From contig NZ_JACYVH010000001.1 in NCBI RefSeq assembly GCF_014842255.1, positions 600,475-664,474 of the forward strand: a stretch of DNA of 64,000 nt, read 5' to 3'. The notes under the pieces are model-generated. The model did not search any database. It saw nothing but the letters and a program-made list of their open reading frames with translations, and had not been told where the DNA came from. The stretch is from Frigoribacterium sp. CFBP 13712 (GTDB lineage Bacteria > Actinomycetota > Actinomycetes > Actinomycetales > Microbacteriaceae). The position numbers and the translations under genes were made by a program. Position 1 is the first letter of the stretch. Every line of letters starts with the position of its first letter. Positions 54,595 through 64,000 of the stretch are shown one piece after another.

Positions 54595-55839
54595 ATGGCG
54601 ACGACGCGGAACTGGTCAGGCACCCTCACGTACTCCGCCTCGCGCATCGTCAGGCCCGAGTCCGTCGCCGAGCTGCAGGAGGCGGTGGCCGGCTCGACGC
54701 GGATCCGCGCCCTCGGCACCCGCCACTCGTTCAGCGACGTCGCCGACGGCACCGGGGTGCTCGTGTCGACCACGGCCCTCCCCCTCGACCTCGTCGTGTC
54801 CGCCGACCGCCGGTCGGCGACCGTGGGCGCGGGCGCCACGTACGGCGCCGTGGCGCAGGCGCTCGAGGCCGAGGGTCTCGCCCTCGCGAACATGGGGTCG
54901 TTGCCGCACATCTCGGTCGGCGGCGCCGTCTCGACCGGCACGCACGGCTCGGGTCGTCGGCTGCAGAGCCTCGCCGGCTCGGTCGCCGCCCTCGAGATCG
55001 TGGGCCCCGACGGTGCGATCCGCTCGGTGCGGCGCGGCGACGCGGAGTTCGCCGGCAGCGTCGTCGCGCTGGGGGCGCTGGGGGTCGTGGTCCGCATCAC
55101 CCTCGACGTCGAGCCGTCGTACCGCATGCGGCAGGACACCTTCGTGGGGCTGCCCTGGTCGAGCGTCGACGACCACCTCGTCGAGGTCATGTCGGCCGGG
55201 GCGAGCGTCTCGTTCTTCCATGAGTTCGACGACCGCATCCGCGAGGTGCTCGTGAAGTCCCGGGTGCCGGCCGATGCGCACGACGTGACGGTGCCCCGGC
55301 GGCTCTTCGGCGCCTCCCGGGCTCCGGTCGACGAGCACACCGAGGTGACGGGCGGCTCGCAGACGCCGATGGACGGCAGCGTCGGCGCGTGGCTCGACCG
55401 GCTGCCCCACTTCCGCCTCGATGCCACGCCGTCGAACGGGTCCGAGCTGCAGAGCGAGCACTTCGTCGCACTCGGCGACGGTGCGGTGGCGCTGCGGGCC
55501 GTCCAGCTGCTCGGAGACGACCTCCGCCCGCACCTGCACACCTGCGAGACCCGCACGGTCGCCGGCGACGACCTGTGGTTGAGCCCCACCCCCGTCGACA
55601 GCCTCGCCATCGCGTTCACGTGGCGGAAGCACCCCGTCGAGGTGGCGGCCCTCGTCGAGCGGGTCGAGGAGGCGCTGCGTCCCTTCGCACCGCGCCCGCA
55701 CTGGGGCAAGCTGACGTCTCTCCCGCCCGCGTCGATCGTCTCGCGGTATCCGCGGTTCGGCTCGTTCGTCGAGCTGATGCACGACGTCGACCCGGGTGGC
55801 ACGTTCCGCAGCCCCTACGTGGACCGACTGCTCGGCTAG
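54595..55839 (+). CDS. FAD-dependent alditol oxidase (AldO-like)
   Basis: A 414-residue VAO-family oxidase, closely matching Streptomyces alditol oxidase in length and order of motifs. It has the FAD-attachment His in IRALGTRHSFSDVADG, the flavin-binding NMGSLPHISVGGAVSTGTHG, ATPSNGSELQSEHFVAL, and TCETRTVAGDDLWLSP with FTWRKHP in the substrate domain. It should oxidise xylitol, sorbitol or a similar polyol at C1 with release of hydrogen peroxide; D-arabinono-lactone oxidase is a related alternative. ATG at 54595 is six bases after CAGACT (54583-54588). Its TAG overlaps the next gene's stop within CTAG. Confidence 0.9.
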   Translation: MATTRNWSGTLTYSASRIVRPESVAELQEAVAGSTRIRALGTRHSFSDVADGTGVLVSTTALPLDLVVSADRRSATVGAGATYGAVAQALEAEGLALANMGSLPHISVGGAVSTGTHGSGRRLQSLAGSVAALEIVGPDGAIRSVRRGDAEFAGSVVALGALGVVVRITLDVEPSYRMRQDTFVGLPWSSVDDHLVEVMSAGASVSFFHEFDDRIREVLVKSRVPADAHDVTVPRRLFGASRAPVDEHTEVTGGSQTPMDGSVGAWLDRLPHFRLDATPSNGSELQSEHFVALGDGAVALRAVQLLGDDLRPHLHTCETRTVAGDDLWLSPTPVDSLAIAFTWRKHPVEVAALVERVEEALRPFAPRPHWGKLTSLPPASIVSRYPRFGSFVELMHDVDPGGTFRSPYVDRLLG

Positions 55840-56489
55840 AAGCCCTCGCCGGTCGGGTCGGCGTCGGTATCGTCGTCGAGCTCGGGGCCGCCGACCGGGG
55901 CGCCCTGCCAGGCGACGAGCCGCCAGCCCGACGCCGGATCGCCCTCGAGCACGACGACACCGGTGTTCTCGAGCGGATGCTGCGCCACGAACTCGGCGGA
56001 CCCGTGCGATCGGGAGCCGCACCAGCCGCGGATCGCGGCACCGTGGCTGACCACCGCGACCGTCTCGTGACCCGAGGCGACGGCGCCCGCCACGGCGGCG
56101 TCGAAGCGGGCGAAGAACTCGTGGCCGTCTTCGGAGCCGGGCAGCCGACGGTCGAGATCGCCGGACACCCACGACACGACGGCGCCCAGGTAGTTCGACA
56201 CCGCGTCGTGATCGCTGCGCGCCTCGAGCTCGCCGGCGATCACCTCACGGAAGCCGGCGACCTCGATCGGCTCGAGGCCGAGCGCTGCGGCGAGGGGTGC
56301 CGCCGTCTCGTGCGTGCGTCGCAGCGTGCTCACGTAGAGGGCGCCGATGGACTCGTCGGCGAGCGCCGCGGGCACCGCTGCGGCCTGCCGTCGACCGAGG
56401 TCGGTGAGACCCGGGCCGGGTGCGGCGGTGCCGAGTCGGCCGACGACGTTGTCGGGGGTCTGACCGTGGCGGATGAGGAGGAGGCGCAT
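55836..56489 (-). CDS. Histidine phosphatase family protein
   Basis: A 217-residue phosphoglycerate-mutase-like phosphatase. It has MRLLLIRHGQTPDNVVGRLG, YVSTLRRTHETAAPLA, the acidic FREVIAGELEARSD and the second His in VAVVSHGAAIRGW. It is a paralogue of the gene at 25315, with the same start and spacing. The substrate is unknown. ATG at 56489 is preceded by TAGGGT seven bases upstream. It is convergent with alditol oxidase: both use TAG, read from opposite strands of the same CTAG, so the coding regions overlap by four bases. Confidence 0.87.
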   Translation of the reverse strand: MRLLLIRHGQTPDNVVGRLGTAAPGPGLTDLGRRQAAAVPAALADESIGALYVSTLRRTHETAAPLAAALGLEPIEVAGFREVIAGELEARSDHDAVSNYLGAVVSWVSGDLDRRLPGSEDGHEFFARFDAAVAGAVASGHETVAVVSHGAAIRGWCGSRSHGSAEFVAQHPLENTGVVVLEGDPASGWRLVAWQGAPVGGPELDDDTDADPTGEGF

Positions 56490-56522
56490 GCCGACCACCC
56501 TAGAGGGGGCCTCCGACACTCC

Positions 56523-57227
56523 TCAGCGGCGGTCGGTGGAGGTGGCGCCGGCCACCGCGTCGGCCGCGGCGCGCTCGCGGCGGCCCCGCAGCACGCTCCG
56601 CAGCCCGGCGATCAGGACGGGTGTCACCGAGAGCAGTACGAGCACGATCGCCCACACGTCCACGTGGTCGCGGATCAGCGGGATGCCGCCGAGCAGCGAG
56701 CCGAGCACCACCATGCCGACGGCCCACACGAAGGCGCCGACGACGTTGAAGAGGAGGAACTTCGGGTAGCGGTAGCCCGCCGTGCCCGCCGCGAGGGGCA
56801 CGTAGGTGCGGACGATCGGGACGAACCGGCCGAGGATCAACGAGACGCCGCCGTACTTGGCGAAGAACGCCTCGGCCTTCTCGAGGTGCGCCGTCTTGAG
56901 GATCCGCGCGTCGGGCGTGAACCAGCGCCGGCCGAAGCGGTTGCCGAGGAGGTACCCGACCTGGTCGCCGAGGAACGCCGCGACGAAGGCGCAGAGCGCG
57001 ATCGTCCAGACCTGAAGGCCCAGGGCCTCGTGCAGCAGCCCGGCGGTGAAGAGCAGCGAGTCGCCGGGCAGGAACGGGAACAGCACCCCCGACTCGATGA
57101 AGATCATGATCGAGATCCCGGCGAGGGCCCACGGCCCGAGCGCGGGCAGCAGCGACTCGGGGTCGAAGAGCAGGAATCCGCCCGAGGCGGCGGGCAGGGC
57201 GGAGGCGAGGAGGGAGGCGGTGGTCAC
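56523..57227 (-). CDS. DedA family membrane protein
   Basis: A 234-residue DedA/VTT-domain protein with about five helices. Family features are IMIFIESGVLFPFLPGDSLL (the Glu and Pro-Gly-Asp region), AAFLGDQVGYLLGNRFGRRW, and LILGRFVPIVRTYVPLAAG with the conserved FxPxxR motif. DedA proteins help transport lipid carriers such as undecaprenyl phosphate or phospholipids across membranes. GTG at 57227 is chosen because it opens the conserved N-terminus; no strong ribosome site is visible. It lies 33 bases upstream of the histidine phosphatase gene on the same strand. Confidence 0.88.
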   Translation of the reverse strand: MTTASLLASALPAASGGFLLFDPESLLPALGPWALAGISIMIFIESGVLFPFLPGDSLLFTAGLLHEALGLQVWTIALCAFVAAFLGDQVGYLLGNRFGRRWFTPDARILKTAHLEKAEAFFAKYGGVSLILGRFVPIVRTYVPLAAGTAGYRYPKFLLFNVVGAFVWAVGMVVLGSLLGGIPLIRDHVDVWAIVLVLLSVTPVLIAGLRSVLRGRRERAAADAVAGATSTDRR

Positions 57228-57341
57228 CGGAGGACTGTAGCGTCCGCGCCTCCGGACACCGCGCCTCCTCGTCCCTTCGGAGGACTCCCGCCCCGCCCGA
57301 TCTCGTCCGCCCGAGGGATATCGCCCGTGAGGGCCGGCTCC

Positions 57342-57347
57342 TAGGCT
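57342..57347 (+). promoter_or_regulatory. -10 element TAGGCT of the ABC transporter promoter
   Basis: TAGGCT lies 62 bases upstream of the ATP-binding protein ATG. The leader contains an inverted GGCCGCC/GGCGGCC (57361-57377) and GAGGAG close to the start. Two dispersed motifs (57245, 57260) lie upstream. Confidence 0.45.
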
Positions 57348-57409
57348 GACCTCTGGACGAGGCCGCCGCTGGCGGCCCCACGACCTGCGACAGAGGAGAC
57401 ATCCCACCG

Positions 57410-58360
57410 ATGATCGAAGCCCATGGCTTGACCAAGAGGTACGGCGCCAAGCTCGCCCTCGACGACGTGTCGTTCACCGTCAGGCCCGGTCTCGTGACCG
57501 GGTTCCTCGGACCGAACGGCGCCGGCAAATCGACCACGATGCGCATGATCGTCGGGCTCGACCGGCCGACGGCCGGCTCGGTGACGGTCAACGGCCGTCG
57601 CTACGCCGACCACACCGCACCCCTGCACGAGGTCGGCGTGCTGCTCGACGCCAAGGCCGTGCACAGCGGCCGCTCGGCGGCGGACCACCTGCTCGCCATG
57701 GCGGCGACCCACGGCATCGGCAGATCCCGCGTCAAGGAGGTCATCGCCCTGACCGGTCTCGAATCGGTGGCGAAGAAGCGCGTCGGCGGCTTCTCGCTCG
57801 GCATGGGGCAGCGCCTCGGCATCGCGGCGGCCCTGCTCGGCGACCCGGCCACGGTCATCCTCGACGAGCCCGTCAACGGCCTCGACCCCGAGGGCGTCGT
57901 CTGGGTGCGCACCCTGGCGCGGCACCTCGCGGGCGAAGGGCGCACCGTGTTCCTCTCGTCGCACCTGATGAGCGAGATGGCGCAGACCGCCGACCACCTC
58001 ATCGTCCTCGGCCGGGGCCGCGTGCTCGCCGACTCCCCCGTCAGCGACGTCATCGCCCAGGCCTCGGGCGAAGCCGTGCGCGTCCGCAGCCCGCGGGCCG
58101 ACGACCTCGTCCGACTCGCGCAGACGCACGACGTCGCCGTCACCCCCGTCGAGCCCGGCCTCGTCGAGCTGCGCGGCATCACCGCCGAGCGCGTCGGCGA
58201 ACTCGCCGCCTCGTCCGGCATCGTCCTCCACGAGCTGACCCCGCTGGTCCGCTCGCTCGAAGACGCCTACATGACCCTGACGCAAGACTCGGTCGACTAC
58301 CACGCCGGAGGCGCGCCCACCACGGCCGCGTCCCCCACCACCGAAGGGGCCCAGCGATGA
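57410..58360 (+). CDS. ABC transporter ATP-binding protein (exporter type)
   Basis: A 316-residue ATPase of the CcmA/drug-exporter class. Walker A is FLGPNGAGKSTTMRM, the signature SLGMGQRLGIAAALL, Walker B VILDEPVNGLDPEG and the H-loop SSHLMSEMAQ. It ends with a C-terminal domain of about 90 residues and a Thr/Ala-rich tail holding a dispersed motif (58307). It probably energises export of an antibiotic, lipid or peptide with the membrane protein encoded next, whose ATG overlaps its TGA. Confidence 0.9.
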   Translation: MIEAHGLTKRYGAKLALDDVSFTVRPGLVTGFLGPNGAGKSTTMRMIVGLDRPTAGSVTVNGRRYADHTAPLHEVGVLLDAKAVHSGRSAADHLLAMAATHGIGRSRVKEVIALTGLESVAKKRVGGFSLGMGQRLGIAAALLGDPATVILDEPVNGLDPEGVVWVRTLARHLAGEGRTVFLSSHLMSEMAQTADHLIVLGRGRVLADSPVSDVIAQASGEAVRVRSPRADDLVRLAQTHDVAVTPVEPGLVELRGITAERVGELAASSGIVLHELTPLVRSLEDAYMTLTQDSVDYHAGGAPTTAASPTTEGAQR

Positions 58361-59232
58361 GCACCAGCGCTCCCACCAGACAGTCCCGCCAGCGCTCGGC
58401 CGGGGGCGGGGTCACCTTCGGGGGCGTCCTGCGCTCCGAGTGGATCAAGCTCCGGAGCCTCCGCTCCACCGTGTGGTGCTTCGCCATCATCGCCGTGCTG
58501 ATCATCGGATTCGGGACGCTGTTCAGCGCCGTCGCCTCCGGCTTCGAGGGCATGGAGTCCACGCCCGAGCAGCAGCAGTCGCTCGCGGCGTCGGTCACCA
58601 CCATCGGCGTCGCCTTCGCGCAGCTGGTCGCCGCCGTGCTCGGCGCGCTGATCATCACAGGCGAGTTCGGCACCGGCATGATCCGCTCGACCTTCGCCGC
58701 CGTGCCCCGCCGCACCCCGGCGCTCATCGCGAAGCTCATCATCGTGGCCATCGGCACCTTCGTCGTCTCGGCCATCAGCCTCGCCATCACGTCGCTGCTC
58801 GCCGTGCCCCTGCTGCGCGGCGTCGACATCGAGCTCGACCTCGCCGACGGGAAGTACTGGCTCTCGATGCTCGGCGCGGCCGCCTCGGTCGCGTTCATGG
58901 CCATGATCGCGTTCGGTCTCGGCATGATCATCCGCAACAGCACGGGCGCCATCGCTGCGGCCATCGGAGTCGTCTTCGTGGTGCCGATCCTGTTCTCGAT
59001 CGCCATGGGCCTCGTCTCGGGCACCTGGGTGTACTCGCTCAACGAGTTCATCCCGCCGACCGCCGCCTCGCGGATCTACGAGTACGTGGTCGACGGCAGC
59101 TCTATGCTGACCGCTCCCGCCGTCGACGGAGCGATCCGCCTCGAGCCCTGGCAGGCGCTGCTCGTGCTCGTCGGCTGGGTCGTGGCGCTGTTCGCGGCCG
59201 GGCTCGCCCTCGTCAAGCGCCGCGACGTCTGA
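58357..59232 (+). CDS. ABC transporter permease (ABC-2 type)
   Basis: A 291-residue ABC-2-type permease with six helices. The N-terminal FGGVLRSEWIKLRSLRSTVW is typical of this class, followed by a large external loop and helices such as LVAAVLGALIITGEFGTGMIRSTF. The last helix ends with a basic KRRDV. It works with the upstream ATPase; the pair resembles small-molecule or lantibiotic exporters, but no substrate gene is nearby. The ATG overlaps the ATPase stop. A dispersed motif lies 11 bases after the stop, then a long inverted repeat. Confidence 0.88.
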   Translation: MSTSAPTRQSRQRSAGGGVTFGGVLRSEWIKLRSLRSTVWCFAIIAVLIIGFGTLFSAVASGFEGMESTPEQQQSLAASVTTIGVAFAQLVAAVLGALIITGEFGTGMIRSTFAAVPRRTPALIAKLIIVAIGTFVVSAISLAITSLLAVPLLRGVDIELDLADGKYWLSMLGAAASVAFMAMIAFGLGMIIRNSTGAIAAAIGVVFVVPILFSIAMGLVSGTWVYSLNEFIPPTAASRIYEYVVDGSSMLTAPAVDGAIRLEPWQALLVLVGWVVALFAAGLALVKRRDV

Positions 59233-59263
59233 CCCACCCGCACCGCGCCTCCTCGGCGCTCTG

Positions 59264-59312
59264 GACGGTCCGGTTCGACCCATCCTCACGGATCGGGAAG
59301 AACCGGACCGTC
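59264..59312. repeat. Long inverted repeat between the ABC and MFS genes
   Basis: GACGGTCCGGTTC (59264-59276) and GAACCGGACCGTC (59300-59312) are perfect 13-bp arms with a 23-base loop that itself contains ATCC-TCAC-GGAT. It lies 52 bases before the MFS TTG and could be a terminator of the ABC operon or an operator for the MFS gene. It does not show the 19-bp internal period seen in three other palindromes. Confidence 0.75.
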
Positions 59313-59364
59313 TCGTGCGTTCGGACGCACAGGCACACCCGCCGTCACCCTCGAGGAGCCCCAT

Positions 59365-60828
59365 TTGACCAGCGCGACATCCCCGGCGACGACCACCGAG
59401 CCCCTCGACGACGACGGGACGGCGGCGCGCAACAAGCTCGTCATCGGCCTCCTGCTCGTCTCGGCGTTCGTCGTCATCCTGAACGAGACGATCATGGGCG
59501 TGGCCCTGCCGAGCCTCACCCGCGACCTCGACATCACGGTCACGGCCGGCCAGTGGCTGACCACCGGCTTCATGCTGACGATGGCGGTCGTCATCCCGAT
59601 CACCGGGTTCCTCCTGCAGCGGTTCAACACCCGACCCGTGTTCATCACGGCCATGAGCCTGTTCAGCCTCGGCACCGCCATCTCGGCCGTCGCACCCGGG
59701 TTCGGCGTGCTGCTGCTCGGCCGCGTCGTCCAGGCCTCGGGCACGGCCATCATGATGCCGCTGCTCATGACGACGGTGCTCACCCTCGTGCCGCCGGCGA
59801 CCCGCGGGCGCACGATGGGCAACATCTCGATCGTCATCTCGGTCGCTCCGGCGATCGGACCGACCATCTCGGGCGTCATCCTCAGCGTGCTCGAGTGGCG
59901 CTTCATGTTCATCCTCGTGCTGCCCATCGCGCTCGCCGCGCTGGCGCTCGGAGCGGCCCGCGTGAAGAACGTGACCACACCGAAGAAGGTGCCGCTCGAC
60001 GTGCTGTCGGTGATCCTGTCGGCCTTCGCCTTCGGCGGCATCGTGTTCGGGCTCAGCTCGATCGGCGAGGGCGCCGAGGCGGCCGTGCCGGCGTGGGTGC
60101 CGCTCGCCGTGGGCGCCGCCGCGCTCGTCGTCTTCGTGCTGCGTCAGCGTTCGCTGCAGCGCCACGACCGCGCCCTGCTCGACCTGCGCACCTTCTCGTC
60201 GCGCACCTTCACCATCTCGGCGACCGTGCTCGGCATCGGCATGATCGCCCTGTTCGGCACGTTGATCGTGCTGCCGATCTACCTCCAGAACGTGCACGGC
60301 CTCGACCCGCTGTCGACCGGTCTGCTGCTGCTGCCCGGCGGGCTCGTGCAGGGGCTGCTGTCGCCCGTGGTCGGTCGCCTGTTCGACAAGCACGGCCCCA
60401 CCGTCCTGCTGGTGCCCGGCACCATCCTGGTCAGCGCCGTGCTGTGGTTCATGTCGACCGTCTCGGAGGCGACCCCGATCCCGATGATCCTCGGCGCGCA
60501 CGTCGCCCTCAGCATCGGACTCGCGTTGATGTTCACCCCGCTCTTCACGTCGGGGCTCGGCTCGTTGCCGTCGAACCTGTACTCGCACGGCAGTGCGATC
60601 GTCGGCACGGTGCAGCAGCTGGCCGGCGCAGCCGGGACGGCGGTGTTCATCACGGTCATGACCCTCGCGACGACGGCCGCCGCGCGCGGTGGCGTGGTCG
60701 ACGTCGCCGCGACCGGCGCTGGCGTGCGGGCGGCGTTCCTCGTCGGAGCGATCATCTCGGTGTTCGCCGTCGTCGGAGCGTTCTTCGTCCGCCGCCCCGC
60801 ACAGGACGCCCCGCCCGTCGCGCACTAG
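59365..60828 (+). CDS. MFS transporter, DHA2 (EmrB/QacA) family
   Basis: A 487-residue, 14-helix drug:proton antiporter. Features include NETIMGVALPSLTRDLDITVTAGQWLTTGFML at helices 1-2, LLLGRVVQASGTAIMMPLL and the C-motif-like VISVAPAIGPTISGVILS. It probably exports drugs or toxic metabolites. The start is TTG at 59365 with GAGGAG eight bases upstream; no ATG lies near. A strong hairpin follows the stop. It may be controlled through the inverted repeat upstream; no regulator is adjacent. Confidence 0.9.
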   Translation: MTSATSPATTTEPLDDDGTAARNKLVIGLLLVSAFVVILNETIMGVALPSLTRDLDITVTAGQWLTTGFMLTMAVVIPITGFLLQRFNTRPVFITAMSLFSLGTAISAVAPGFGVLLLGRVVQASGTAIMMPLLMTTVLTLVPPATRGRTMGNISIVISVAPAIGPTISGVILSVLEWRFMFILVLPIALAALALGAARVKNVTTPKKVPLDVLSVILSAFAFGGIVFGLSSIGEGAEAAVPAWVPLAVGAAALVVFVLRQRSLQRHDRALLDLRTFSSRTFTISATVLGIGMIALFGTLIVLPIYLQNVHGLDPLSTGLLLLPGGLVQGLLSPVVGRLFDKHGPTVLLVPGTILVSAVLWFMSTVSEATPIPMILGAHVALSIGLALMFTPLFTSGLGSLPSNLYSHGSAIVGTVQQLAGAAGTAVFITVMTLATTAAARGGVVDVAATGAGVRAAFLVGAIISVFAVVGAFFVRRPAQDAPPVAH

Positions 60829-60838
60829 CCCCGCCCCT

Positions 60839-60868
60839 GGCGCCCCGTGGCCTCGCTCACGGGGCGCC
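60839..60868 (+). terminator. Hairpin terminator of the MFS gene
   Basis: GGCGCCCCGTG (60839-60849) and CACGGGGCGCC (60858-60868) are perfect 11-bp arms with an eight-base loop, 10 bases after the stop. Confidence 0.82.
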
Positions 60869-60929
60869 GGGCCCCTGGCGGAGCGCCCGCCCGGGCGCCC
60901 CGGGCGTGGCGCGCCCTGTCTGTGACGCC

Positions 60930-61097
60930 CCGCCTCCCCCAGCGCCGCTCACCCCGTCGCCGCCTCCGCCTCCCCCAGCCCCGCTCACCCCGTCGCCGCC
61001 TCCGCCTCCCCCAGCCCCGCTCACCCCGTCGGCGCCTCCGCCTCCCCCGCGCCGCTCGTCCGTCGGCGCCTCCGCCTCTGCCGGCGCCGCTCACCCC
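60930..61097. repeat. 36-bp tandem repeat array, five copies
   Basis: Copies begin at 60930, 60966, 61002, 61038 and, after a 34-bp copy, at 61072. The unit begins CCGCCTCCCCCAGCCCCGCT and ends with CCCCGTCGCCGCCT. Copies 1-3 are almost identical. There are no variable spacers, so this is a tandem array and not CRISPR. The last copy runs into the GGCAACTCC element and the end of the DUF559 gene. Confidence 0.9.
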
Positions 61098-62050
61098 GTC
61101 GGCAACTCCTGCTCCCTGCGGCGCCGCGGAACGGCGAGCCGCCAGTGTCTGCGCCCCCGCGGCCCGAGGACTCGCGGCAGGCAGGAGTTGCCGACGTGTG
61201 CGACGGGTCTCGGCCCTCCCGCGGTTGAGATCAGAGCATCGATCGCCGCTGCCGTCTCCTCCCACGTGTCGCGCACCATCAGCGTGCCCGCCCGGAACGG
61301 GATGCGGCCCTCGCGCGCGATCGCGGCGTCCTTGAGGCGGTCCTCGTGGAACCTCTCCTCGTGGTGCTGCCGCCCGTCCGTCTCGAACCCGATGATCCCG
61401 TCGACGACCATGTCGATGATCCTCCGCGAACGTCCGACGGGCACCTGACGGCGCACATGGTGCCCGGCGCACCTGAGGCGAGTGCCGGCGGCGCTCTCGA
61501 GAATGCTCTCCGCGCCTCCCTCGCTCCACGCGACGAGGCCCGCTGCGTCGGCGTGTTTCCGAGACAGGACCTCCGCGGCATCGTCGTCATCGAGAACCAC
61601 ACCGGCCTGCCGGGCCCAGTCCACGAGGATCACGGCGTCTTCGAGTGATCGTGCCTCGACGACGGCCCTGGCGAGAGCGTCACGGGGGTCGACCGACCAG
61701 GCGGTGCCCCTCTCGCTGAGATCGAGCGGGTCCCAGACGACCCGGATGCCGCGACGCCGCCGGAGGCGCGAAGCCGTCTCGGGCACGGACACGGTGATCG
61801 GCGGGCGCGTCCACGCCCAGGCACCCAGCGCGTGGAGAGCCGCGGCCCCGGTCAGTCGCCCGCCGATGCTGACGGCCACGTATCGCGGATCGGTTCGGTC
61901 CCAGGTGGAGTACCAGCCCCTTCGGGGCCGTGTCACTCCTCGAGAGCGGACGGCGGCCGTGAGGTGCCGGTCGGTGGCTCCGTGAGCCACCAGGTCGCGC
62001 TTGTGCAGGAGGCCCCCGGCGGAGATGACGAGTTCGGCGATCGTGGTCAT
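61091..62050 (-). CDS. AbiEi-type N-terminus / DUF559 nuclease-like protein flanked by inverted-repeat pairs
   Basis: A 319-residue protein. The first 60 residues form a winged helix of the type found in AbiEi-like antitoxins (ISAGGLLHKRDLVAHGATDR). The C-terminal half (from about 190) is a DUF559/Vsr-like PD-(D/E)xK domain: GGAESILESAAG, RIIDMVVDGIIGFETDGRQH. Such proteins are numerous in actinobacteria and their role is unknown. The last 40 residues (from VAHVGNSCLP) are encoded by the inverted-repeat pair at 61098-61195 and should be an acquired tail. ATG at 62050 begins the AbiEi-like domain. Two further repeat pairs lie upstream. Confidence 0.82.
   Translation of the reverse strand: MTTIAELVISAGGLLHKRDLVAHGATDRHLTAAVRSRGVTRPRRGWYSTWDRTDPRYVAVSIGGRLTGAAALHALGAWAWTRPPITVSVPETASRLRRRRGIRVVWDPLDLSERGTAWSVDPRDALARAVVEARSLEDAVILVDWARQAGVVLDDDDAAEVLSRKHADAAGLVAWSEGGAESILESAAGTRLRCAGHHVRRQVPVGRSRRIIDMVVDGIIGFETDGRQHHEERFHEDRLKDAAIAREGRIPFRAGTLMVRDTWEETAAAIDALISTAGGPRPVAHVGNSCLPRVLGPRGRRHWRLAVPRRRREQELPTG
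61098..61195. repeat. GGCAACTCCTGC inverted pair 1 (3' end of DUF559 gene)
   Basis: GTCGGCAACTCCTGC (61098-61112) and GCAGGAGTTGCCGAC (61181-61195) are perfect 15-bp arms, 68 bases apart. The pair overlaps the coding 3' end of the DUF559 gene. Pairs 2 and 3 share the same arm core. Confidence 0.9.
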
Positions 62051-62188
62051 GCCGACACAGCGTGCCCAAGACCCGCCCGGCTCCGTGCCGAAGACCTCCG
62101 CACTGTGGAGAGACGGGGAATCGGCCCGTCTGGGGACGAGGGATCGACCACGCACGGCCTTCACCTGGGGATGACGAGACCCGACGCT

Positions 62189-62268
62189 GGCAACTCCTGC
62201 CTCCTGCGCACACGAGGGCAGCCGCCCGGCGAACGCACCGGCCGAGACGACCGCAGCCAGGAGTTGCC
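62189..62268. repeat. GGCAACTCCTGC inverted pair 2
   Basis: GGCAACTCCTG (62189-62199) and CAGGAGTTGCC (62258-62268) are perfect 11-bp arms with a 58-base spacer. The left arm continues as CCTCCTGC, similar to pair 1. Confidence 0.88.
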
Positions 62269-62357
62269 GACCAGCCGCCGGAGCGGAGTGCGGGTGTCGG
62301 ACGCACCGTTCAGGTGCGCATCGGTACCGCCGCCCGGGTCGAGACCCAGAGGCCGGC

Positions 62358-62440
62358 GTCGGAAACTCCTGCTCGCTGCAGCACGTCACGGGGGCACGGC
62401 CTGTTCCGGCCCGTGCAGGCGACTGGAGGCAGGAGTTGCC
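62358..62440. repeat. GGCAACTCCTGC inverted pair 3
   Basis: GTCGGAAACTCCTGC (62358-62372, one change from pair 1) and GCAGGAGTTGCC (62429-62440). The spacer contains a smaller GCACGG/CCGTGC hairpin. Confidence 0.85.
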
Positions 62441-62508
62441 AGCGGGGGCGGGGGCGCGGCGCGGGCAGGGGCGCGGGGCGGGGCGGGAGCGGGCGGGGGC
62501 GCCGGGGG
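62441..62508. repeat. G-rich tract with quadruplex potential
   Basis: Several runs of four or five G (GCGGGGGCGGGGGCGCGG and later GGGGCGGGGCGGG) on the plus strand, directly after repeat pair 3 and before the NnrE stop. Such runs can form G-quadruplexes; no function is shown. Confidence 0.5.
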
Positions 62509-63252
62509 CTAGGGGGTGGAGAGCTCGGGGGCTCCGAGGCGGAGACCGATGTCGATCAGGACTACGCGGCCAGCGAGCATCGGCCCGCTGCCGCGAAGGA
62601 GCCCCGCCTTGCGTCCGCCGAAGGTGACGGTCACGTCCGCCGGCAGCACCAGCTCGGCCGATCCGTCGTCGGGATGGAGGCCGCTGGGGAGGTCGACCGC
62701 GACCACCAGCGGACGCCCCAGCACCGGCCCCGAGGGCACCGGCCCACCAGCCCCCGGTCCCGCAGACCCCGCACCAGCCCCCTCCCCGCCGGACCCCGCA
62801 CCCCCGCCCAGCGCCGCCACCACGCGCCGTGCGTCCCCTCGCAACCCGCCGCTGGCGCCCGTGCCCACCATCCCGTCGAGCACCACGTCGTACTCGCGCA
62901 GCAGTCCGGGCGCCGCCGCGGGGTCCGTCCAGGGGCCCAGCGCGTCGACCGTCGCGCCGGCGACCAGGGCGGCATCGAGCCCCGCCTCGTGCAGTCGCGA
63001 TCCCGTGGGCACCACGGTCACCACGCCCCCGGGCACGAACTCCTGCGCCAGCGATGCGCCGGCGTAGAGGGCGTCCCCGCCGTTGTCGCCGCTGCCGACG
63101 AGCAGCAGGATCCGCGGGGCCGAGGAGGCGCGCAGCAGCCCGGACACGACCCCCGCGAGTCCGTCGGCGGCCCGCTGCATGAGCGGCTCCCCGGCCTCGA
63201 GCAGCGGCTTCTCGGCGGCACGGATCTGGGCGGCGGTCCAGGCATCGGTCAT
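62509..63252 (-). CDS. nnrE: NAD(P)H-hydrate epimerase
   Basis: A 247-residue YjeF_N-type epimerase, which interconverts R and S forms of hydrated NAD(P)H so that the repair dehydratase can act on them. Motifs are AAQIRAAEKPLLEAGEPLMQRA, LLLVGSGDNGGDALYAG, VVLDGMVGTGASGGLRG (catalytic Asp) and VAVDLPSGLHPDDG. A Gly/Ala/Pro-rich insertion of about 30 residues follows GALGG-like sequence at 150-180. The dehydratase domain often fused to it (NnrD) is absent. ATG at 63252 lies six bases after CAGAGT, another leaderless pattern. Confidence 0.9.
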   Translation of the reverse strand: MTDAWTAAQIRAAEKPLLEAGEPLMQRAADGLAGVVSGLLRASSAPRILLLVGSGDNGGDALYAGASLAQEFVPGGVVTVVPTGSRLHEAGLDAALVAGATVDALGPWTDPAAAPGLLREYDVVLDGMVGTGASGGLRGDARRVVAALGGGAGSGGEGAGAGSAGPGAGGPVPSGPVLGRPLVVAVDLPSGLHPDDGSAELVLPADVTVTFGGRKAGLLRGSGPMLAGRVVLIDIGLRLGAPELSTP

Positions 63253-63263
63253 GCCTCCACTCT

Positions 63264-63313
63264 GCCCCTCGCCGCACGCGAGGCGCCGACTCGCCGCACG
63301 CGAGGCGCCGACA
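63264..63313. repeat. Direct repeat upstream of the terminal hydrolase
   Basis: CTCGCCGCACGCGAGGCGCC is present twice in tandem between the divergent NnrE and hydrolase starts, each copy containing a small CTCGC/GCGAG hairpin. It could be a regulatory site for either gene. Confidence 0.6.
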
Positions 63314-63338
63314 CCCGCCCTGCTGCCAGACTGGACGG

Positions 63339-64000
63339 ATGCGTGCTCAGGCGAACAACCCCGTCGACGGAACCGAGATCGCCTACGAGGTGGACGGCGA
63401 CGGCCCTCCCCTGGTGCTGGTGCACGGCTCCGGCCTCTCGCGCGGCACCTGGCGCGGGCTCGGCTATCTGCGCGATCTGCAGCGCGACTTCACGGTGGTC
63501 GCGCTCGACATGCGGGGTCACGGCAAGAGCGGCAAGCCGCATGATCCCGCGTCGTACACGATGGACCTCCACCGCGGCGACGTCGAGGCCGTGCTCACCG
63601 CGACCGGGCTCGAGCCGGCGCACTACGTCGGCTACTCGTTCGGCGCCCGGATCGGCCTCTCGATCGCGGCCCACACTCCGCGGCTGCTGCGCACGCTGAC
63701 GACGATCGGCGGCAGCTGGGCCCCCATGAACGGCAACATCGGCGCCACGTTCGCCCCCGACTGGCACGAGGCGCTCACCACCGGCGGCATGGCCCGCTTC
63801 GTCGACCGGTGGGGCGAGACCATCGGCCGTCCGATCGACCCCGAGACCCGTCTCGCCTTCATGCAGGACGACCCCGAGGCGCTGGCCGCCTTCTTCACCG
63901 CGGCCGAGACCGGCGGCGGCCTGACCGTCGACCAGCTCGACTCGGTGACCGTGCCCACCCTCCTGCTCGCCGGCACCCGCGACGTCGACCGGCACCGCGA
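63339..64000 (+). CDS. Alpha/beta hydrolase, 3' end beyond the window
   Basis: The first 220 residues of an alpha/beta hydrolase; the gene continues past the window. It has LVLVHGSGLSRGTWRGLGYL, VVALDMRGHGKSGKP, the nucleophile elbow in YVGYSFGARIGLSIA, and the acid region LLAGTRDVDRHR at the end. It resembles proline iminopeptidase or haloalkane dehalogenase-like and other small hydrolases; the substrate is unknown. ATG at 63339 follows CAGACT (63327-63332) by six bases, consistent with a leaderless mRNA. The catalytic His is not yet reached. Confidence 0.85.
   Translation, partial: MRAQANNPVDGTEIAYEVDGDGPPLVLVHGSGLSRGTWRGLGYLRDLQRDFTVVALDMRGHGKSGKPHDPASYTMDLHRGDVEAVLTATGLEPAHYVGYSFGARIGLSIAAHTPRLLRTLTTIGGSWAPMNGNIGATFAPDWHEALTTGGMARFVDRWGETIGRPIDPETRLAFMQDDPEALAAFFTAAETGGGLTVDQLDSVTVPTLLLAGTRDVDRHR

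Follow-up and report, generated by a model that had tools for sequence, protein, structure and literature searches.

The analysed stretch, hereafter the window, comprises 64,000 nucleotides of the Frigoribacterium sp. CFBP 13712 genome (NZ_JACYVH010000001.1, positions 600,475 to 664,474, written here as C1:600475-664474; the source genome spans 3.16 Mb on 40 contigs). It encodes a 319-codon gene for a putative nuclease, which is accompanied at both ends by inverted pairs of the 12-mer GGCAACTCCTGC. A gene family bracketed in this way by its own matching pairs may represent nucleases of a new kind, which recognise the repeats and perhaps spread them. The gene, the parts of its product and the three pairs are as follows.

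61091-62050, minus strand: nuclease gene, 319 codons (ATG 62050-62048, stop 61091-61093, from the open reading frame (ORF) list)
61520-62050, minus strand: AbiEi-antitoxin-like DNA-binding part (winged helix plus a second domain), residues 1-177, by structure match to 6y8q
61214-61513, minus strand: PD-(D/E)xK nuclease domain of the Vsr/DUF559/MTES_1575 type, residues 180-279, by structure matches and invariant residues
Residues 280-319 of the 319-residue protein: basic tail
61098-61195, unstranded: 3' inverted pair, 92-bp class by the outer ends of its 12-mers (61101 and 61181)
62189-62268, unstranded: upstream inverted pair 1, 80-bp class (12-mers 62189 and 62257), 139-218 bp before the start codon
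62361-62440, unstranded: upstream inverted pair 2, 80-bp class (12-mers 62361 and 62429)

The first-pass annotation had described six copies of the element forming three inverted pairs, two upstream of the gene and one at its 3' end. The positions were confirmed, with four exact arms and two that differ at one position (62257 reads GGCAACTCCTGG and 62361 reads GGAAACTCCTGC), and both upstream pairs stand where they were placed, but the 3' pair lies within the last codons and not beyond the gene. It is part of the ORF and encodes the C-terminal tail (VGNSC...QELPTG). The conserved arm exceeds the 12-mer and extends over about 15 nt (GTCGGCAACTCCTGC). Allowing up to one mismatch, the window contains seven copies of the 12-mer against 0.26 expected, a number reached in 0/100 shuffles; the seventh copy, at position 205, is remote from the gene and has no partner at up to one mismatch.

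The AlphaFold2 model of the window protein has a mean predicted local distance difference test score of 89.6 and a predicted template modelling score of 0.87. Residues 1-177 resemble the AbiEi antitoxin 6y8q with moderate scores (Foldseek E 6.3e-4; VIA-align Z 6.8 over 176 residues, root-mean-square deviation 4.6). In the VIA-align ranking, which covers Foldseek candidates only, residues 180-279 match NGO0050 (3hrl, Z 11.9), the homing endonuclease I-Bth0305I (3r3p, Z 11.7 over 95 residues at 2.6 A), Vsr with DNA (1cw0, Z 9.8) and Holliday-junction resolvases (Z 7.3-8.4). The window protein itself scores 19.8 bits against Pfam MTES_1575 (PF18741), under the cut-off of 38.2, while a Pfam scan of 27 aligned homologs found MTES_1575 in 20, AbiEi_4 in 11 and DUF559 in 6, and the PADLOC AbiEi model matched 26/27 of them weakly. 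These model and structure matches uphold the earlier call, made from the letters alone, of a winged helix joined to a PD-(D/E)xK-like domain. No Y1 transposase (HUH) model was among the Pfam matches of the window protein (E up to 1) or of the 27 homologs (E up to 0.01). Residues E185, Q202, D213, E223, H230, F234 and D237 are invariant in both alignments (27 and 42 sequences), which would fit an active enzyme if the catalytic role is carried over from the family; we presume that the catalytic residues are among the conserved acidic, Gln and His positions, as in the EDxHD/Vsr family. The names glyS, EDxHD and TRIC are in part presumptive.

The exact 12-mer occurs 16 times in the window's genome, and 15 pairs at eight places are found when up to two mismatches per arm are allowed. 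Two of these places are gene homologs, the window copy and C1:31k (70% identical), and the remaining six lie between or inside ordinary genes, for example next to leuA. At first sight, this single genome looks to favour a simple repeat family, but a survey of 16 Frigoribacterium genomes alters that picture. Counts across these genomes are not independent, as the sites are inherited. Pairs occur in 16/16 genomes (1-10 exact pairs per genome, against 0 for the reversed control) and so do homologs of the window gene, the main gene type being present in one to three copies each. The first-pass annotation had held that pairs equally common far from the gene would speak against a link between the two. 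Instead, 78/84 first-type pairs have a cognate gene no more than 100 kb away, where 9.4 would be expected, the other six being on contigs without one, and 0/84 lie that close to a second, diverged paralog (5.0 expected). The clustering is also seen when the count is restricted to solo places at distances above 2.5 kb from the gene, 33/37 of which are within 100 kb of it (3.9 expected).

The diverged paralog, 44-51% identical to the query and aligned as two segments in seven genomes, has a pair type of its own, GGCAACTCMGG, found in 10/16 Frigoribacterium genomes. In the window's genome such a pair stands at C2:173179, immediately upstream of the paralog (gene C2:173409), and in some other genomes of the genus the paralog has another upstream arm, GTCGACGGTTCAGG. 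Pairs of this second type lie within 100 kb of their own paralog in 25/35 cases (2.1 expected), as do 17/24 of their solo places (1.4 expected), and 0/35 lie that close to a first-type gene (4.7 expected).

Beyond the genus, homologs are accompanied by matching pairs with other arms. In other genera of the family these include TCGGAAATTCAGGA, CGGCAATTCAGG, CACAATTCAGG, CTGGCAAAACCGGC, CATAACTCCTGC and ACAGATGTCGGG, among others; in other families GATCGTACTGAC, GCATAACCGTCA, GGAACACAAACG or GCCGTCGTGACC are found, and GGAAATTCAGG stands for one arm family. After removal of near-identical proteins, partial domains and short flanks, 150 homologs were available for a two-sided test in which all four arms of the upstream and 3' pairs must agree at >=10 of 12 positions (N4 >=10). 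Matching pairs were found at 73/150 homologs compared to 1/324 control ORFs, which were taken from the same loci >=1.3 kb away from any homolog (Fisher p 4e-42); the window gene passes with an N4 of 11. A strong upstream pair with its midpoint at -200 to -101 is present in 75/147 homologs and 29/429 controls, and the pair rate in the other 100-bp bins of homologs is 1-8%. An earlier cross-locus null (N4 >=10 in 65/137 vs 33/411, with 8/145 homologs excluded for too short a flank) was dropped for the control ORFs because related loci share arms, and single-linkage clustering of arms, which merged 67/78, was not used for counting arm types.

The alignment profile finds the protein in 40/296 class-level genomes at E 1e-25. 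A GGAAAYTCAGG pair is present in 28/299 genomes of the family; BLAST at E 1e-20 finds a homolog in 26 of the 28. Since a profile search detected some homolog in 18/21 further or doubtful genomes, pair-negative ones and the two pair-bearing genomes without a BLAST homolog included, mere presence or absence was not used as proof, and the second half of the first-pass condition, pairs in genomes without such genes, offered no usable contrast. Similarly, phylogeny alone could give the distribution of the exact first-type pair, which occurs in 0/292 genomes of other genera and, together with a homolog, in 16/16 of the same genus.

The geometry of the pairs is constrained. Among five arm families, with 25-200 bp allowed, pair lengths are 69-70, 78-82, 89-92, 100-103 or 112 bp, in addition to three pairs of 180 bp, and the gaps between these classes are empty. 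All 229 distinct pairs of 61-115 bp (the rows of two arm families overlap and sum to 241) fall within 2 bp of 69, 80, 91, 102 or 112, although lengths that close to a class make up only 45% of the range; the pairs are non-independent, as related pairs inherit their length. The best length period is 11.0 bp (resultant 0.85). When pairs are found without regard to the arm, 72/73 homologs have upstream and 3' spacings that agree to within 2 bp or differ by 10-13 or 22-23 bp, and in the remaining one the difference is 19. Steps of 11 bp are what two sites held on the same side of a duplex would produce, and this quantised spacing favours duplex DNA contacted from one face over a single-stranded hairpin. 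The arms can base-pair with each other; the inside folds little better than shuffled sequence (mean z -0.4 for 90 elements and -0.9 for 93 elements).

The arms are also retained where the interior is not. At the leuA solo site, located 7-8 kb from the gene in 12 Frigoribacterium genomes, the arms are 99% identical and the insides 54% (shuffled, 50%), in a comparison of 11 nt per arm at sites chosen for having at most two mismatches per arm. Many solo sites of G051, G180 and G124, whose DNA is about 80% identical, are syntenic with unrelated insides. The inside is not wholly free, however, as inner positions hold more information than shuffled ones in all seven subsets tested. A separate observation is the motif GACACGCC / GGCGTGTC near the middle of the pair, found in 36/229 elements against 1.1 expected after shuffling. 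It spans arm families, mainly those with the Frigoribacterium or the ACAAYTCAGG type of arm (e.g., L067 4563-4642), and could be a cutting or assembly site.

The gene and its element are tied together at the coding end and the main locus is stable. The stop codon is inside or after the 3' pair in 61/78 homologs with matching pairs (N4 >=9), and the GGNAAYTC arm is read in the frame Gly-Asn-Ser in 32/35 readable cases; a 3' pair within the coding end, mostly in one frame, means that gene and element are interlocked. The order glyS-like gene, nuclease gene and DsbA/c0 is found in 16/16 Frigoribacterium genomes, with the DsbA gene uncalled in some, and in the window's genome the neighbours at this main locus are a class II tRNA synthetase (glyS-like) and DsbA. 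A glyS or DsbA relative is present in the flank of 46/114 homolog loci (both in 42), and the arms at the glyS-gene-DsbA locus vary between genera. The main locus is thus inherited vertically while the arm changes. The window copy is an extra gene copy next to YjeF, which is found in 9/16 genomes; in the other 7/16 no such gene was seen in the 1.2 kb after YjeF. When the two copies within a genome are compared, DNA likeness starts at most 27 bp from the start codon. Its far end falls between +916 and +959, within the 3' pair or shortly beyond it, in 4/5 genomes, and at +788, before the pair, in G000. This likeness alone does not define a mobile unit, because the stretch is coding. No AbiEii-type toxin partner was present among the identified neighbours of the window and main loci.

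The window gene is flanked by genes for a major facilitator superfamily transporter and a YjeF_N protein (Pfam). A C-rich tandem repeat in 36-bp steps at 60918-61116 adjoins the 3' pair and overlaps its outer edge. The single match in an Rfam scan covering 58000-64000 scored far under the family's own level, and a tRNA search of 55000-64000 found none.

Solo pairs were placed with a gene caller based on GC content at third codon positions, and 4/55 loci inside called ORFs were excluded. The 51 placed loci lie in 33 tandem, 17 convergent and 1 divergent gaps, compared to 168 tandem, 45 convergent and 32 divergent gaps in the background (n=245; p 0.02 per contrast, with loci non-independent). 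Solo pairs are mostly at gene ends, as are repetitive extragenic palindromic (REP) sequences, which speaks against a plain operator role. G001 (L174 3878-4376) has a tandem array of four pair units and a recurrent spacer, with a period of about 140-150 bp; in G005 the two genes on either side lie about 120 bp apart. In two Frigoribacterium genomes (L018 2545-2636 and L192 4291-4382) a 92-bp pair stands within ligD (a non-homologous end joining polymerase-ligase), in the coding sequence that separates the 3'-phosphoesterase domain from the ligase domain, the arms in L018 having one and two mismatches. At L014 2395-2474 a pair starts about 10 bp past a DNA polymerase III alpha-like gene, and a pair is found in the same gap in G002.

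The overall reading that we prefer, tentatively and at a strength just short of probable, is of a nuclease with its own recognition element, whose pairs are bound, cut and multiplied locally. Its starting points are established: the layout and its generality, the match between subfamily and arm, the clustering in one genus, the helical spacing, and the retention of arms at old sites. The component claims differ in strength. The protein very probably recognises its own pair, because matching arms, cognate clustering and helical phasing together demand a holder of two duplex arms, and the AbiEi-like part would be a suitable reader because AbiEi binds inverted repeats before its own gene (PMC7319586). 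The pair is likely bound as bridged duplex DNA. That cutting by the protein maintains or spreads the pairs is conceivable to nearly the point of being probable, in that cutting followed by repair copying would best account for the tandem arrays, the local clusters and the invariant catalytic-type residues together. A still broader proposal, somewhat more doubtful, is that fusion of AbiEi and Vsr parts defines a class of repeat nucleases unrelated to REP-associated tyrosine transposases (RAYTs), which would bridge two arms set whole helical turns apart on one face of the duplex, cut there and so maintain and locally multiply their own pairs in the chromosome, with arm and protein changing together across actinobacterial evolution and the coding-end pair included.

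In the mechanism that may link these claims, the element consists of inverted arms of about 15 bp, some 69, 80, 91, 102 or 112 bp end to end, which would face the same side of the helix. Each AbiEi-like half of a dimer, or of a higher complex, would bind one arm and so bridge the interval. At the upstream pair, binding may repress the protein's own gene in an AbiEi-like manner, and at pairs generally the Vsr-type nuclease domain may nick or cut. Repair would then copy or duplicate the pair locally, as the tandem arrays and the clustering suggest, and the outcome may be a small local population of pairs co-evolving with the protein, as REPINs (REP doublets forming hairpins) do with RAYTs.

Several observations weigh against this reading. 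We infer binding, cutting and copying alike. The two-sided threshold is missed by 77/150 homologs, some of which carry an upstream pair only, and 10/35 second-type pairs are far from their cognate gene or on other contigs. Copy numbers are low, at 1-10 exact pairs per Frigoribacterium genome and up to 22 elsewhere, and among the matches listed for G156, G094 and G036 the copies do not cluster locally but are scattered. Seven GGAAAYTCAGG pairs occur in G055, whose sole homolog found has GAAAACTGAGGA arms (L285); in G252 there is one such pair, and none of the homologs examined carries arms that match it. The upstream arms at the YjeF copies are imperfect in several genomes, which looks like decay. 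Finally, the relatives compared provide no clean empty site or target duplication, and sites are often shared. The repeats of G055 may be read either as an orphan population or as the sign of a missed gene. Two sets of candidates for insertion were set aside: the difference between G005 and G006 is a tandem-copy difference only, located at an assembly gap (Ns) in G005, and the presence and absence seen at the c25/c26 and c22/c34 sites and among G051, G180 and G124 was not used for transposition, as the flanks are too diverged for a junction. The first-pass annotation had suggested a recognition or mobility signal. Recognition is strongly supported by the cognate clustering and by the protein's relatives having matching arms of their own, but mobility fares less well, as different species have many solo sites in common and a clean empty site was not found.

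The main rival to this explanation is a regulator with old binding sites, in which the protein would be an AbiEi-like autorepressor with a nuclease that is idle or otherwise used, and the solo pairs would be regulatory or chromosome-organising sites that are never copied. We consider this unlikely overall, although it has the AbiEi-like N-terminal part in its favour, together with the binding of AbiEi to inverted repeats before its own gene (PMC7319586), the fixed place of the upstream pair, which is the clearest feature of the system, and the long conservation of many solo sites. It fits poorly with the rarity of solo pairs in divergent, promoter-only gaps (1/51 vs 32/245, p 0.02, non-independent) and with the invariance of the catalytic-type residues; operators would be expected neither to form tandem arrays nor to include a 3' pair inside the coding sequence, and AbiEi operators are unlike these pairs, being 23-bp repeats 3 or 13 bp apart (PMC7319586). 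An improbable alternative is a selfish gene of the homing type, whose Vsr/EDxHD-type endonuclease would cut gene-less alleles and be copied by repair, so that pairs are the borders of the unit and solo pairs its remnants. The nearness of the catalytic domain to I-Bth0305I (Z 11.7) and Vsr (Z 9.8) agrees with this, as does the extra copy with its pairs beside YjeF in 9/16 genomes and unseen in 7 (1.2 kb); the copies are alike up to the 3' pair in 4/5 genomes, though that stretch is coding sequence too. Nevertheless, the main locus is vertical (16/16 same-genus genomes, and a glyS/DsbA flank in 46/114 homolog loci), the solo sites read show no gene remains and recur in tandem, and the arms are still conserved at an old solo site.

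The pairs could also be REP-like terminators or hairpins that hitchhike with the gene and are not recognised by the protein, a possibility that we regard as very improbable. Solo pairs are indeed mainly at gene ends and their arms can pair, but the insides fold little better than shuffled sequence (z -0.4 and -0.9), and hitchhiking leaves unexplained why two paralogs in one genus have cognate arms, why the four arms at a locus agree and why the spacing is quantised in 11-bp steps. The suggestion in the first-pass annotation that the gene may simply sit in a repeat-rich region has the adjoining C-rich tandem repeat on its side and can be given almost no weight, being contradicted by the 12-mer excess, the genus-wide pairs, the cognate clustering and the two-sided homolog test.

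No association between a bacterial enzyme and a population of short repeats is better known than that of RAYTs with REP sequences. The first-pass annotation had likened the layout to theirs, and the analogy of layout holds; the enzyme, however, is unrelated, and the 11-bp spacing suggests a duplex and not a single-stranded hairpin. In REP/REPIN-RAYT systems, the enzyme gene is mostly vertical and flanked by inverted-pair repeats that are also found solo between genes, each enzyme subfamily has its own repeat type, and repeats cluster near the enzyme gene (PMC3116915, PMC8049555). The window system shares a mostly vertical enzyme gene, flanking cognate inverted doublets, solo pairs, subfamily-specific arms and clusters near the gene, and REP/RAYT is its closest analogue, with membership failing on the enzyme. 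The RAYT is an HUH tyrosine enzyme, whereas the window enzyme combines a Vsr-type PD-(D/E)xK domain with an AbiEi-like part. In further contrast, the window system has a spacing in register with the turns of the duplex and weak folding of the inside; copies are few (1-22 exact), those of Frigoribacterium being for the most part no further than 100 kb from the gene, and one pair is carried in or at the coding end (the 61/78 homologs above).

Other known systems share single parts. AbiEi of the type IV AbiE system (and Rv2827c) resembles the window protein in its N-terminal 177-residue fold and in having inverted repeats before its own gene; AbiEi binds 23-bp inverted repeats, 3 or 13 bp apart, in that position (PMC7319586). 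The window protein differs in being fused to a nuclease and in having no AbiEii-type partner among the identified neighbours, and its arms of about 15 bp span 69-112 bp end to end and recur as 3' and solo pairs. The I-Bth0305I-type (EDxHD) homing endonucleases and Vsr share the fold of the catalytic domain, and the window system is distinguished from them by its DNA-binding part, flanking pairs and vertical main locus. The MTES_1575 Vsr-type restriction endonuclease domain is described as part of giant HEPN fusion proteins (PMC3710099); the nuclease family (PF18741, sub-threshold for the window protein) is common to both, but the window protein is small and stand-alone, without the HEPN, helicase or transglutaminase part. 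Among open-licence PMC papers, no description was found of repeats tied to AbiEi/DUF559/MTES_1575 genes.

If the preferred reading is true, a second, unrelated class of enzyme would have the same habit as the RAYTs, and the arrangement would have arisen more than once. Its rules would be testable, each subfamily being a natural protein-site pair with a different arm, and the 11-bp spacing provides a direct and cheap geometric prediction. The reading would also give a role to the actinobacterial AbiEi/DUF559-type genes that resemble orphan antitoxins, and these genes would perhaps amount to a collection of DNA-bridging nucleases that natural evolution has diversified in specificity many times over.

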